The position numbers and the translations under genes were made by a program. A DNA stretch of 41,260 nucleotides, taken from NCBI GenBank assembly GCA_018819925.1, contig JAHJPG010000090.1:1-41260 (forward strand), given 5' to 3'. The stretch comes from Pseudomonadota bacterium. GTDB lineage: Bacteria > Desulfobacterota > Desulfarculia > Desulfarculales > Desulfarculaceae. The notes beneath the pieces are model-generated. The model was not told the DNA's origin, did not search any database, and was given only the letters and a program-made list of their open reading frames with translations. This document shows, piece by piece, positions 4,458 through 9,219 of this stretch; the first letter of the stretch is position 1; every line of letters starts with the position of its first letter.

Positions 4458-6023
4458 ATGCACGCGCTGTTCTCCCGGCTCCCCCTGGCACTGCTTGGTG
4501 CGCTGATAGGTTTGCTCTCTCAACTCTTCTGGCTCGGCGGCCACGGCTGGGAAGAGGCCGCCGTGCGCATCCCCGCCGGAGTGGTTGGCGGCGGCGTAAT
4601 CTTTTGGCTCCTGGGAGAATTGTCGGCCTGGCTCCTTCGCTTTTCCGGCAAGGACCTGTGGGCCGGGGTGGCGCGCTTCTGGCCATTTTTGGGCCGCGCC
4701 TCGCTGTGGCGGGGCATGGCCGCCGCCTGGCTGGTGCTGTTGGCCGGCTTTGGTGTGGGGCTGTACGTCCACTCCACCCGCGCATGGCCCTACCCTATCG
4801 TCAAGCAAATTGAAGCCTGGTTTCGGGGCGAAGGCTTCACCACCTTCGAGCAAAAACTTGCTAACGACCTGGATATAGTACCCGCCCGGCACCTGGTGAC
4901 GGTGGACCTGAAGGCGCCGGGCGACCGCGTCTATAAAAGCCTGGAGGGGCTGCCCATCCGCTCGCGCCGCATAGCGCCCAAATATTTCCTCTCCCCGGAC
5001 GCGCCCAAGGCCTATCGGGTGATCTTCGGCACCTTCGACTTTGACGACAAGCGCTACGGCGCGGTGCTCCTGGACCCCCAGGGCAAGGTGAAGCACATCT
5101 GGAAGCCCAGCCAAGAGGACGTCCCCTGGGATCATCGCGACGATGCCAACGTGTTTCCCCATGGCTTCGACGTGGGCCGGGACGGCTCCATCTACGCCGC
5201 CTACGACAACGGAACATCCCTGACCAAATACGACTATTGCGGCAATATCGCATGGCGTTTGCAGGGCGGTTTTCATCACTCCATCACCCTAGGCGACGAC
5301 GGAACCCTGTGGGTCTGGGGCCCCACCTTGGACGACCCCAACCGCAACGACTGCCTGGTGCAAATCGACGACGCCACCGGCAAGATTCTCAAGGCCATCA
5401 CGCTGGAAAAAGTGATAAGCGCCAACCCGGAAATAGATATTTTCGGAATCCGCCAATTGGACGAGCACAATCGGTCAATTTGGGTCGAAGACGGCGGTGG
5501 CCAGTGGCACCCCAACGACATAGATCCCTTGCCCGCGGCCCTGGCCTCCAAATACCCTCAATTCAAGGCCGGCGATTTGTTGGTTTCCCTGCGCTCGGTG
5601 GACCTTGTCTTTGTCATGGACCCGGACACGCTCAAGGTCAAGTGGTGGCGCCAAGGACTGGTCAGGCGCCAGCACGACCCGGATTGGGGCCAAGATGGAA
5701 CCATCACCATTTTTAACAACAACATGCACCGCGATCATTCGAGCATCATCGGAATCGACCCCAAGACCTATAAAAGCAAGGTTCTGCTGGACGGCAAAAA
5801 GTATAATTTTTACACTCACATCCAGGGCAAGCACCAAATGCTGCCCGGCGGGGGTATATTGACAACCTCGCCGCAGCAGGGGCGGGTTTTCGAGGTGGAC
5901 CGCAAGGGCAAGGTGGTCTTTGAATTCCTCAACGTATATGACGACCAAAACCGCGCCTTAAGCATTTCCGAGGCCAAGAACTTGCCCCTGGATTATTTTA
6001 GGGAGTTGCCGAAATGCCAATAG
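4458..6023 (+). CDS. Membrane-anchored arylsulfotransferase (ASST)-like protein
   Basis: A 521-residue protein. Three predicted transmembrane helices (about 8-26, 38-60 and 86-106) are followed by a large beta-propeller-like domain of the arylsulfotransferase family (PF05935/PF14269). If the N-terminus is inside, that domain faces the periplasm. Bacterial ASSTs move a sulfuryl group from one phenol ester to another through a sulfo-histidine, without PAPS. Candidate catalytic histidines sit in the family-like strands HSITLGDDG (H274), RQHDPDWG (H406) and KHQMLPGGG (H459). Which one is the nucleophile needs an alignment. The gene starts the cassette and overlaps the next by 10 nt. The ATG at 4458 follows AAAGGAAAAAAT. 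Sulfate donor and acceptor are unknown. A sensor or binding role with the same fold is possible. Confidence 0.75.
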   Translation: MHALFSRLPLALLGALIGLLSQLFWLGGHGWEEAAVRIPAGVVGGGVIFWLLGELSAWLLRFSGKDLWAGVARFWPFLGRASLWRGMAAAWLVLLAGFGVGLYVHSTRAWPYPIVKQIEAWFRGEGFTTFEQKLANDLDIVPARHLVTVDLKAPGDRVYKSLEGLPIRSRRIAPKYFLSPDAPKAYRVIFGTFDFDDKRYGAVLLDPQGKVKHIWKPSQEDVPWDHRDDANVFPHGFDVGRDGSIYAAYDNGTSLTKYDYCGNIAWRLQGGFHHSITLGDDGTLWVWGPTLDDPNRNDCLVQIDDATGKILKAITLEKVISANPEIDIFGIRQLDEHNRSIWVEDGGGQWHPNDIDPLPAALASKYPQFKAGDLLVSLRSVDLVFVMDPDTLKVKWWRQGLVRRQHDPDWGQDGTITIFNNNMHRDHSSIIGIDPKTYKSKVLLDGKKYNFYTHIQGKHQMLPGGGILTTSPQQGRVFEVDRKGKVVFEFLNVYDDQNRALSISEAKNLPLDYFRELPKCQ

Positions 6024-6238
6024 CCTTGATAGCCATCGCCGCCCTGTTGGTGTTGTTCCCCGGCACCGCCCAGGCCTACGTGGGTCCCGGCTTGGGGTTG
6101 GGGGCCATCGGCGCCATCTTGGGGGTTATCTTCTCCATCCTGTTGGCCATACTCGCCTTCTTCTGGTACCCCATCAAACGGCTCTTTGGCATAGGCAAAA
6201 AAAAGCAGGAAAACCAGGAAGATGACATCCTGGACTGA
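6014..6238 (+). CDS. Small exported membrane peptide (YVGPG type) of the sulfation cassette
   Basis: A 74-residue protein. Residues 1-21 look like a cleavable signal peptide ending in AQA. A short YVGPGLGLGAIG stretch follows, then one strong transmembrane helix (about 33-54) and a basic, polar tail (KRLFGIGKKKQ). It overlaps the ASST-like gene by 10 nt and the sulfotransferase gene by 17 nt. All three are therefore likely translated together and made in linked amounts. Small proteins with a YVGPG motif occur beside sulfotransferase or phosphatase genes in other bacteria, as I recall, but no function is established. A membrane linker between the two large proteins is a reasonable guess. Confidence 0.75.
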   Translation: MPIALIAIAALLVLFPGTAQAYVGPGLGLGAIGAILGVIFSILLAILAFFWYPIKRLFGIGKKKQENQEDDILD

Positions 6239-7724
6239 TTGGGCCCTCCAGGCCCTGGCCTGCCTGCCGGGGGTGGTGGTTTTCGTGGAGTTGTTCCGAG
6301 CCCTGCCCATGATGGACAACCTGAACCACCTGAAAACAACCACCCAAAAAGTCATGGGGGTGGTCAGATCCTCCAAGACCTCGGACCACTGGAAAGAAAA
6401 GATTCTGCCTCACTACGCGGGGGTCATCCTGGCGGCCAGCCTGCGCAACGTCTTGTATCTGCTGATAATGGCTGCGGGCTTCGCCCTGGCCTTTTGCCTG
6501 GTGGGCATGTGGTTCCTGGGCGGCTTCGCCTCGGCGGCGGCCATGCTGTTGGAGCCCTCGGTGCAGATCATCGCCGCCCTGTTGGGCACGGCCTACGCCG
6601 TCGCCCGGGTCAAGCTGACCCCGGCCCAGGGCGCCGACGAACACCTGGGCTCCAAACTGCTGCACCACCTGGCTTTGGATAGCCGGCTGTTGCGCAAAGC
6701 GGCTTTCGACCTGGATTGCTCCATGTCCGCCGCCCGCAAGCTACCCCCGCCCCCGGGCCCCCCGGTGTTCATCACCGGCCTGGCCCGGGCCGGAACCACC
6801 ATCCTGTTGGAGGCGATCTACGCCAGCGGCCGCTTCGCCACCCTCACCTACCGGGACATGCCCTTTATAACCGCGCCCAACTTTTGGAAATCGGTTTCCT
6901 CGGGCCAGCGCCGCCACGCCCAAGCCAAGGAGAGGGCCCACAAGGACCGCCTGCTGGTCAACTACGACAGCCCGGAGGCCTTCGAGGAAATCTTCTGGAT
7001 GACCTTTGACCAGGGCAGCTACGTTAAGGAAAACTGCCTGGTCCCCCACAAGGTGCCCCGCGAGGTGCTGCTCAACTACCGCCGTTACGTGGCCAACATC
7101 ATCGCCAAGGATTCCAAGGATGCCCCGCTGCGCTACCTGGCCAAGAACAACAACAACTTGCTGCGCATTAGCGCGCTAAAAAGGGCCTTTCCCGAGGCGG
7201 TGATCCTGGTGCCTTTCCGCAACCCGCTGGACCATGCTAAATCCCTGATGGCGCAGCACCAGCGCTTTGTGAAAACGCATCAGGACGACCCCTTCTCCCT
7301 GAAATACATGAACTGGCTGGGCCACCACGAGTTCGGGGCCAACCTCAAGCCCTTCCGCGTGGGCAACGACGCCCTGCCCCACTGCCCCGAGGAGTTGGCC
7401 GACTTCTCCTATTGGGTCAGGTATTGGAGTTGCGTCTACGATTACGTGCTCAACCAGCACACCGCCGAGATCGTGCTTTTTGACTATGACCTCTTTTGCC
7501 GGAAGCCGGCCGCCTGCCTGGAAGAGTTGGCTCCCTTGCTGCGGTTGGACAAAGAGCAGTTGGAGCCCTTCTTCAGCAAGATAAAAAGCTCCACCCGGCA
7601 CGACCATCCCACGGTCGCCCCAGAGGTGTTGGCCCGGGCCAATGAAGTACACGTTGAGTTGCGGCAGAGGGCCATGGCCGGCGGGCAAAAGCCTTCGGCT
7701 CGTCCCCAAGCCTTGCCGTCATGA
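6222..7724 (+). CDS. Membrane-anchored PAPS-type sulfotransferase
   Basis: A 500-residue protein. The first 135 residues hold about three hydrophobic helices (near 7-27, 75-103 and 110-130) and form a membrane anchor. The rest is a Sulfotransfer_3-like domain (PF13469). The 5'-phosphosulfate-binding loop is ITGLARAGTT at residues 184-193. The 3'-phosphate-binding motif is RNPLDHAKS at 333-341, with the expected Arg and Ser. It should transfer sulfate from PAPS to a hydroxyl or amine of an unknown acceptor, on the cytoplasmic side where PAPS is made. The gene overlaps the small peptide gene, and cysC lies about 100 nt downstream. The fused anchor suggests a lipid, cell-wall or membrane-delivered acceptor. 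Family call is firm; substrate is open. Confidence 0.87.
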   Translation: MTSWTDWALQALACLPGVVVFVELFRALPMMDNLNHLKTTTQKVMGVVRSSKTSDHWKEKILPHYAGVILAASLRNVLYLLIMAAGFALAFCLVGMWFLGGFASAAAMLLEPSVQIIAALLGTAYAVARVKLTPAQGADEHLGSKLLHHLALDSRLLRKAAFDLDCSMSAARKLPPPPGPPVFITGLARAGTTILLEAIYASGRFATLTYRDMPFITAPNFWKSVSSGQRRHAQAKERAHKDRLLVNYDSPEAFEEIFWMTFDQGSYVKENCLVPHKVPREVLLNYRRYVANIIAKDSKDAPLRYLAKNNNNLLRISALKRAFPEAVILVPFRNPLDHAKSLMAQHQRFVKTHQDDPFSLKYMNWLGHHEFGANLKPFRVGNDALPHCPEELADFSYWVRYWSCVYDYVLNQHTAEIVLFDYDLFCRKPAACLEELAPLLRLDKEQLEPFFSKIKSSTRHDHPTVAPEVLARANEVHVELRQRAMAGGQKPSARPQALPS

Positions 7725-7826
7725 GACGATCGCGGCCAGGGAAATTGATCCGATAACCGAATCGCACGGACGAGATTGATCCAGGGCCAGGTTCAAGGCC
7801 CTTTAAACGCGGAACTTGGTGGACAA

Positions 7827-8423
7827 ATGATCAAGGAAGAATTGGCACCTGGCGCCTGTCCCGACATCCTTAACAAAACCATTTCCGCCCAAGGAGGCGT
7901 TATTTGGTTTTTCGGCATGCCTGGGAGCGGTAAATCCACCCTGGCCGGTTCCCTGAGGAAAATCCTCAAGGAGCACAAAAATTGGGTGTCCTACCTCGAC
8001 GGCGACCAAGTTCGCAAGCGCCTTAACAGCGACCTGGGCTTCAGCGAGGCCGACCGCATGGAGAATATTCGCCGGGCGGCGGAGATCGCCCGGCTCATGG
8101 CCGATGCGGGCTCCCTGGTCATCGTGTCTTTGATTACCCCGCTGGAGGCCAACCGCCGCATGGTCCGTGGCATCCTGAATGGCCATAATTATTGCGAATG
8201 TTTTGTCAAATGCTCGCTGGAAACATGCGAAGCGCGTGATCCCAAGGGACTATACCGGCGGGCCCGCCTGGGGGAGATTCCCAACATGACCGGTATAGAC
8301 TCGCCCTTTGATATATCCGAGGATTCGGAAATAATCGTCGACACCGAAAACCTGGATTATTCGGCCTGCATGGCGCACCTGCTGGAATCGCTGCATCAAC
8401 GGGGAGTCATCTCCATCGGGTGA
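7827..8423 (+). CDS. cysC: Adenylyl-sulfate (APS) kinase
   Basis: A 198-residue APS kinase, close to the usual length, that phosphorylates APS to PAPS. Visible motifs are the P-loop GMPGSGKST (30-38), LDGDQVRKRLN, GFSEADRMENIRR, and the family signature CEARDPKGLYRRAR followed by GIDSPFD. The loop usually reading ISP is LITP here, with Thr where E. coli has the phosphorylatable Ser. I chose the ATG at 7827. An in-frame TTG at 7776 would add 17 residues without family support. The gene follows the sulfotransferase by about 100 nt. Dissimilatory sulfate reducers use APS directly, so a dedicated kinase here most likely feeds PAPS to the sulfotransferase. Confidence 0.95.
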   Translation: MIKEELAPGACPDILNKTISAQGGVIWFFGMPGSGKSTLAGSLRKILKEHKNWVSYLDGDQVRKRLNSDLGFSEADRMENIRRAAEIARLMADAGSLVIVSLITPLEANRRMVRGILNGHNYCECFVKCSLETCEARDPKGLYRRARLGEIPNMTGIDSPFDISEDSEIIVDTENLDYSACMAHLLESLHQRGVISIG

Positions 8424-8466: not shown

Positions 8467-9219
8467 CTAAGGCGCCACCCTGGCCAGGATGGCAGCCACC
8501 TTGGCCTCTGACAGCCAAGTCACCTTGCCGTCCGACAGGTCGTACATGGCTCCGACCACTTTGACCTTGCCCTGCTTCACCAGTTTCACGGTGGATGGGC
8601 TTTCCCTGAACAGGGTTTCTATTCCCATCCAGACGTTTTCCTCGGTGGCATAGGGGACCACGGCCAACCCTTTCGCCCGGGGATGGTCGTGCATGGCCTT
8701 TTTCACCGCCGGGATGATGGGAGCCACCAGGGGGGGGATGTTCCGCTCCAGATCCAAGTGGGCGCCTTGGACCATTTTGGTCACCGCGATCACCGCCCCG
8801 CACTGAATGTGCCCCATGACTACCAGAATGGGGGTGTACACATGGGCGGTTCCATATTCGATGGACCCTATTTCGTCGGTTTTCATCACGTTGCCCGCCA
8901 CCCGGACCACGAACAAATCCATTATGCCGGCATCGAAAATCATCTCCACGGGGACGCGGGAGTCGGAGCAGGAAATAATGGTGGCGTAGGCGTGGCCGCC
9001 CTGATTCTCCTTGGCCGCTTGGGCCAGGCGCTGAGCGTCCTGGCGGGGATTCACGGGGTTGCCCGTGTAAAAACGCTCATTGCCCTGTTTGAGCTTGGTC
9101 AGCGCTTGTTGGGGAGAGGGCTTGCCAGCCCAACCATCCGCCCCCAGGGCCAGGGCCGGCGCCCAGGCGATGAAGATCAGCATTATCAGCCCGGCAAACA
9201 AGGGCGTACGGTGGTTCAT
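8467..9219 (-). CDS. Exported beta-class carbonic anhydrase
   Basis: A 250-residue protein with a signal peptide (about 1-26, ending ALALGA) followed by a beta-carbonic anhydrase domain that interconverts CO2 and bicarbonate. The zinc site is complete: C84 with D86 and R88 in CSDSRVP, and H137 with C140 in GHIQCGA. The signal peptide indicates a periplasmic enzyme, a location more often seen for alpha-class enzymes but known for some beta-class ones. The gene stands alone, pointing away from the gene-poor stretch upstream and convergent with cysC. A role in CO2/bicarbonate supply or pH balance at the cell surface is inferred. Confidence 0.92.
   Translation of the reverse strand: MNHRTPLFAGLIMLIFIAWAPALALGADGWAGKPSPQQALTKLKQGNERFYTGNPVNPRQDAQRLAQAAKENQGGHAYATIISCSDSRVPVEMIFDAGIMDLFVVRVAGNVMKTDEIGSIEYGTAHVYTPILVVMGHIQCGAVIAVTKMVQGAHLDLERNIPPLVAPIIPAVKKAMHDHPRAKGLAVVPYATEENVWMGIETLFRESPSTVKLVKQGKVKVVGAMYDLSDGKVTWLSEAKVAAILARVAP

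Follow-up and report, generated by a model that had tools for sequence, protein, structure and literature searches.

The locus and its genes

The window, meaning the whole 41,260-nucleotide stretch of DNA analyzed here, lies within a 4.03 Mb draft genome (G000) that is 96% complete and has Desulfarculaceae MAGs as its closest named relatives. An aprA match in this genome (842 bits; cut-off 642) is consistent with a sulfate reducer as host, as the first-pass annotation had supposed.

Four genes occupy positions 4458 to 8423 of the forward strand. The first (4458-6023) encodes an ASST-type sulfotransferase of 521 residues, in which three N-terminal transmembrane helices precede a propeller predicted to be periplasmic. 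It is followed by the gene for a 74-residue membrane peptide (6014-6238) with a probable signal peptide ending in AQA, a Y-x-G-P-G motif, one transmembrane helix and a basic C-terminal tail. The third (6222-7724) encodes a 500-residue PAPS-type sulfotransferase (ST), which alignment and an HMM divide into an N-terminal membrane domain with three transmembrane segments and a basic loop between the first two (6222-6626), and a catalytic domain predicted to be cytosolic (6627-7724). The fourth encodes an APS kinase. The ASST and peptide genes overlap by 10 nt and the peptide and ST genes by 17 nt. No overlap is present at the APS kinase gene: the listed open reading frame opens at TTG 7776, and relatives of 198 residues begin at the position of ATG 7828, so the gene likely spans 7828-8423 and starts 103 nt after the ST stop. 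These four families, with membrane anchors on three of the four proteins, had been proposed on first pass. The open reading frames and family matches bear this out, and hydrophobic segments are predicted in the ASST (three), the peptide (two, one of them the probable signal peptide) and residues 1-125 of the ST (three). Promoter and terminator scans gave no useful signal. Convergent with the APS kinase, the reverse strand at 8467-9219 encodes a member of the carbonic anhydrase family (PF00484) whose N terminus is signal-like; such a gene was not seen beside the other cassettes searched.

Conservation of the core gene set

A search with the ST as the only query found relatives in Desulfarculaceae, Bacteroidota, Gammaproteobacteria and, on annotated plasmids, Alphaproteobacteria, and most of these loci also carry the ASST and the peptide. 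The ASST, the peptide and the ST share 33 loci spread over four major lineages (Desulfobacterota, Bacteroidota, Alpha- and Gammaproteobacteria), so their grouping is not due to chance. Cultured carriers of the cassette include Halioglobus japonicus, Hydrotalea and Rhodobacter sp. CZR27. The conserved unit is the ASST, the peptide, a three-helix membrane protein and the ST, with the APS kinase optional. The earlier idea of a four-gene cassette thus stands for its core, which is kept as a set across Desulfobacterota and other phyla, and falls for the kinase. A lack of co-occurrence in other genomes, which the first pass had named as a refuting outcome, was not seen for the core. Gene order is ASST, peptide, membrane protein, ST in most lineages, and membrane protein, ST, ASST, peptide in Gammaproteobacteria. 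Public annotation at four alphaproteobacterial loci (L031, L032, L035 and L037) reads 'arylsulfotransferase family protein - hypothetical - hypothetical - sulfotransferase'.

To measure co-occurrence, an ST profile (A1) and an ASST profile (A3) were applied independently of each other to one set of genomes sampled evenly from large groups, at E-value cut-offs of 1e-20 and 1e-15, which divergent copies may escape. The ST was found in 28 of 942 genomes, the ASST in 25 and both in 23. By group, the ST, the ASST and both were present in 18, 14 and 14 genomes of Pseudomonadota (n = 398), in 5, 4 and 4 of Bacteroidota (n = 247), and in 5, 7 and 5 of Desulfobacterota (n = 297). The corresponding hypergeometric p values of 1e-22, 3e-8 and 1e-9 are indicative, because related genomes are not independent. 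Among the genomes with an ST and no ASST, the G600 set lies at a contig edge and G519 (Bacteroidota) matches an ST fragment only; G961, G677 and G923 are apparent true exceptions, and the ST locus of G318 also has no ASST. Two Desulfobacterota (G148 and G305) have the ASST and no cassette-type ST. The pairing of ST with ASST is not obligatory.

Some of these loci have unusual arrangements. In G961 (L078:6272-7776) and G318 (L081:3063-4507), the ST and the peptide are divergently transcribed and no ASST was found nearby. The G600 set (L093:529-4047), in which a heparinase II/III-like protein (PF07940) comes after the ST in a glycan-type cluster, is interrupted at the start of the contig by a transposase-like fragment. 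In G677 (L079:6594-10021), an ST of the cassette family is accompanied by a YIDPNAGS peptide, encoded divergently, and has a carbamoyltransferase close by; the place of the ASST is taken by a 672-residue member of the sulfatase (alkaline phosphatase) superfamily (PF00884). This is perhaps a parallel system, and it hints that YxxPxxG peptides go with several kinds of extracytoplasmic enzyme.

Each sampled genome has a single ST locus. ASST copies can be more numerous, with two in G640 (in tandem), G672, G872 and G513, and four in G054 (Desulfobacterota; L028:9050-11987, L119 and L122), where two tandem copies stand beside the only ST set. Pairwise distances of the ST, the ASST and the peptide correlate (r = 0.81, 0.86 and 0.73), and shared ancestry alone could give such values. 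The trees agree broadly except in the deeper order of the ASST tree, which suggests that some ASSTs may have been swapped. A phage or viral origin of the cassette was rejected, since no relatives were found among phages or viral contigs.

The ASST and the PAPS sulfotransferase

The ASST matches PF14269 (E = 4.9e-33, 115 bits; cut-off 27) and PF05935 (E = 1.7e-9, 37.6 bits; cut-off 24.2). In a structure search with its AlphaFold2 model (pLDDT 78), the best match was Cpz4 (9kf6, Z = 26.3). The top eight rows, at Z = 24-26, were all Cpz4 or E. coli ASST (3ets, Z = 24.8), and the next, unrelated propeller scored 21.8. The nearest true ASST by sequence is also Cpz4. The putative catalytic residues H273/H274, H351, N353, R379 and H406 are invariant in 33/33 loci, and Q405 and N421 are also kept in every row of that alignment. 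The active site of E. coli ASST contains His252, His356, Asn358, Arg374, Thr501 and the sulfated His436 (PMC13426309). H351-x-N353 has the same H-x-N spacing as the E. coli enzyme, whose numbering was mapped by motif and not by superposition, and R379 and H406 align with Cpz4. Profile, modeled fold and the candidate catalytic cluster all place the protein in the ASST class. The donors of that class are aryl sulfates and not PAPS (PMC13426309), and an aryl sulfate is the putative donor here.

The catalytic domain of the ST matches PF13469 (E = 3.7e-13). Its 5'-phosphosulfate loop reads GLARAGTT (R189, G191 and T193), and R333 and S341, eight residues apart, form the 3'-phosphate pair; these residues are present in 33/33 loci. 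R238, H240, D242, E256, K308, H368 and E370 are likewise invariant. Foldseek searches with the AlphaFold2 model (pLDDT 82) placed STF1, STF9, PAP-bound TPST1/2 and heparan sulfotransferases among the top rows. Loss of PAPS binding had been named on first pass as fatal to the cassette idea; both motifs are intact and the fold resembles that of PAP-bound sulfotransferases. By motifs and modeled fold, the protein is a predicted PAPS-dependent sulfotransferase.

Small membrane proteins and predicted topology

No Pfam or NCBIfam family was found for the 74-residue peptide of the window. Its residues Y22, G24, G26 and P53 are present in 33/33 loci and P25 in 32/33. In Bacteroidota, Gammaproteobacteria and most Alphaproteobacteria, the counterpart of residues 1-135 of the window ST is a protein in its own right, about 117-130 residues long and with three membrane segments. 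Desulfobacterota and two plasmid sets (L033 and L036) have this domain fused to the ST. The HMM of this membrane protein recognizes nothing in a divergent subgroup (L037, L082-L085 and L092), where an open reading frame of about 230-250 residues takes its place in several loci.

Topology was predicted from hydropathy and charge only. The ASST is predicted to have a short basic N terminus inside, one helix (three in Desulfarculaceae) and the propeller outside. The peptide is predicted to place a signal peptide or free N terminus and the YxGPG loop outside, followed by one helix and a basic tail inside. For the three-helix protein, the N terminus is predicted outside, a basic loop (+6 to +12) inside, then two helices and the C terminus inside, which would also put the fused ST inside. 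In the tested lineages with a separate ST gene, the ST itself lacks any membrane segment. The ST is thus predicted to be cytosolic, where PAPS is found, and the ASST to be periplasmic, on the opposite side of the membrane.

APS kinase is recruited to the core in two lineages

The kinase of the window matches PF01583 (E = 1.6e-52), NF003013 (204 bits; cut-off 163) and TIGR00455 (190 bits; cut-off 139). By family, kinase and ST are a predicted maker and user of PAPS, in agreement with the first-pass annotation. Within the Desulfarculaceae genus, strong APS kinase matches occur in the six cassette genomes and not in the two others. The gene follows the ST in 4/6 and lies elsewhere in the genome in the other two. 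In Bacteroidota, it lies upstream of the ASST, overlapping or abutting it, at L010, L015, L018 and L020, and about 2 kb downstream of the ST at L014. No APS kinase was seen adjoining the proteobacterial sets. Recruitment on different sides of the core in two lineages supports the link to PAPS. The kinase is nevertheless not diagnostic, since the family is present in 17/20 Desulfarculaceae genomes, most of them without the cassette. It was accordingly rejected as a cassette marker, and on the same count the kinase alone does not imply sulfation of a cell product, as the earlier argument had it. The PAPS reductase profile PF01507, used as a probe of assimilatory use, gave mostly weak matches in the genus, and all 14 controls also matched. 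G000 has a second APS kinase family gene outside the window (G000:C18:9349-9789, E = 2e-42).

Comparison with known sulfation systems

The closest precedent is caprazamycin biosynthesis, where the PAPS enzyme Cpz8 sulfates a small phenolic carrier and the ASST Cpz4 hands the sulfuryl group on (PMC6731281, PMC4257720). The caprazamycin cluster, with its type III PKS carrier, and the A-90289 cluster (LipE/LipB) combine a PAPS sulfotransferase with an ASST, as do the 33 loci. The cassette differs in that its enzymes are membrane-anchored, on predicted opposite sides, and are accompanied by two conserved small membrane proteins. It also differs in having Gram-negative hosts and no dedicated type III PKS. 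PF02797 scored below the family cut-off in 13/16 cassette genomes, including that of the window, and above it in 3/16, which makes a PKS product unlikely as a general carrier.

Other systems share single elements. The AssT of E. coli CFT073, which occurs with DsbL/DsbI, has the same propeller fold (Z = 24.2-24.8), predicted periplasmic placement, the H-x-N motif and the other active-site residue types. We know of no PAPS sulfotransferase or YxGPG peptide in its operon. That operon carries Dsb proteins (PMC13426309). Mycobacterial Stf3, which resembles the cassette ST in general fold, is a PAPS sulfotransferase that modifies a membrane quinone derivative and has a PAPS operon in its vicinity (PMC7081687); no ASST partner is described, and the sulfated quinone is seen as an end metabolite. 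Capsule PAPS sulfotransferases of Vibrio sp. KMM 8419 and Cobetia marina also serve envelope sulfation in glycan clusters, with direct sulfation from PAPS presumed, and a search of the two papers did not turn up the word 'arylsulfotransferase' (PMC11641403, PMC11766843). The Roseobacter aminolipid gene SalA was dropped as a match because its paper does not mention a sulfotransferase. The literature search found no paper describing the cassette set; most subscription journals lay outside its scope, so this is weak evidence of absence. The first-pass statement of knowing no described system with this exact set agrees with the literature searched; the pairing of PAPS sulfotransferase and ASST as such has a precedent in caprazamycin. 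Additional to that precedent are the predicted anchoring on opposite sides of the membrane and the two small membrane proteins.

A proposed trans-membrane sulfuryl relay

PAPS is a cytosolic cofactor. The first pass gave no reason for a PAPS-dependent and a PAPS-independent enzyme to be neighbors. The match to Cpz4 and the predicted topology suggest that the ST and the ASST work one after the other, each on its own side of the membrane, and on balance we lean towards a trans-membrane sulfuryl relay, in which the ST loads a carrier from PAPS and the ASST passes the sulfuryl group to envelope acceptors. The APS kinase, assigned by family, would make PAPS in the cytosol. The membrane-anchored ST, with its conserved motifs and sulfotransferase fold, would transfer the sulfuryl group on the predicted cytosolic side to a lipophilic, phenol-like membrane carrier. 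At a guess, this could be a hydroquinone, a plausible candidate because quinols are the membrane phenols common to these lineages and a PAPS sulfotransferase occurs in the sulfomenaquinone cluster (PMC7081687). We infer that this carrier, once sulfated, would pass through the membrane or be offered at the other face, perhaps with help from the three-helix protein and the YxGPG peptide. The periplasmic ASST, judged by its fold and residues, would then load the sulfuryl group onto H406 and deliver it to envelope acceptors. Extending the caprazamycin logic across the membrane in this way would account for the joint travel of ST and ASST, for the two small membrane proteins and for one ST with several ASSTs, as expected of one donor-maker with several users. 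The analysis identified neither a carrier for the relay nor a gene to make one, and no flippase either. At L010 (7107-8591), an aromatic amino acid lyase (PF00221, E = 8e-182) is encoded on the other strand just downstream of the cassette. It is possibly a phenol source or just local synteny, and such a lyase was seen only beside the related L010 and L014 sets.

The genomic setting bears on the acceptors. L018, L089, L094, L033 and L034 have glycan-type neighbors (glycosyltransferase, O-antigen polymerase/ligase-type, Wzz, flippase or carbamoyltransferase genes), and the acceptors there would most likely be glycans or glycolipids. At L034 (3767-11005, plasmid pSC52_6), within an exopolysaccharide cluster, two weakly ASST-like proteins annotated as hypothetical flank the ST, and a three-helix membrane protein is present. 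No glycan cluster was recognized alongside the window cassette, and the L031 and L035-L037 sets also lie outside recognizable ones. The acceptors probably differ between sets.

The polysaccharide clusters, with their glycosyltransferases, Wzx/Wzy/Wzz-type genes or carbamoyltransferase, would also suit two separate sulfations of one envelope product. In that case the ST would sulfate a lipid-linked precursor from PAPS in the cytosol, and the ASST would later add or move sulfate elsewhere on it outside, drawing on environmental aryl sulfates, much as E. coli ASST is proposed to use urinary phenolic sulfates (PMC13426309). We hold this to be unlikely: the sets outside recognizable glycan clusters do not fit it, and it leaves unexplained both the near-constant pairing of this ASST clade with the ST and the genomes where one ST stands with up to four ASSTs. 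Somewhat less likely still is that the ST product is itself the end product, a membrane sulfolipid such as a sulfated quinol, from which the ASST strips or recycles the sulfuryl group outside. Stf3 in the sulfomenaquinone cluster (PMC7081687) offers a parallel, as does the L079 set with its sulfatase-superfamily protein, but relatives of the ASST work as transferases through a covalent intermediate on histidine (PMC13426309), and several ASSTs per ST suit distribution better than removal. The divergence of the ASST, with identity between phyla down to about 20%, could even mean that the propeller is a non-catalytic receptor or scaffold in a simple PAPS sulfotransferase system. The invariance of the candidate catalytic H, H, N, R and H in 33/33 loci, despite the divergence of most other residues, makes that highly improbable.

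The relay might also be cast more broadly. A membrane-soluble aryl sulfate, for instance a quinol sulfate, could be a general lipid-linked sulfuryl donor that brings activated sulfate through the cytoplasmic membrane, much as undecaprenyl-linked intermediates do for sugars, with the peptide and the three-helix protein providing passage and several ASSTs fed from the same pool; we regard this wider version as speculative and rather doubtful.

Known Gram-negative ASSTs are periplasmic and need a donor other than cytosolic PAPS. A 2026 review puts the poor understanding of what bacterial ASSTs do physiologically down to their unknown natural substrates (PMC13426309). If the relay is true, the cassette would supply the missing natural sulfate donor of the family. 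By coupling ASSTs with an enzyme that uses PAPS, and doing so in distant bacteria, it opens the feeding of ASSTs to genetic testing. It also provides a probable context for two families of conserved small membrane proteins, one of which has no Pfam or NCBIfam entry, and suggests a general route for sulfating molecules outside the cytosol.
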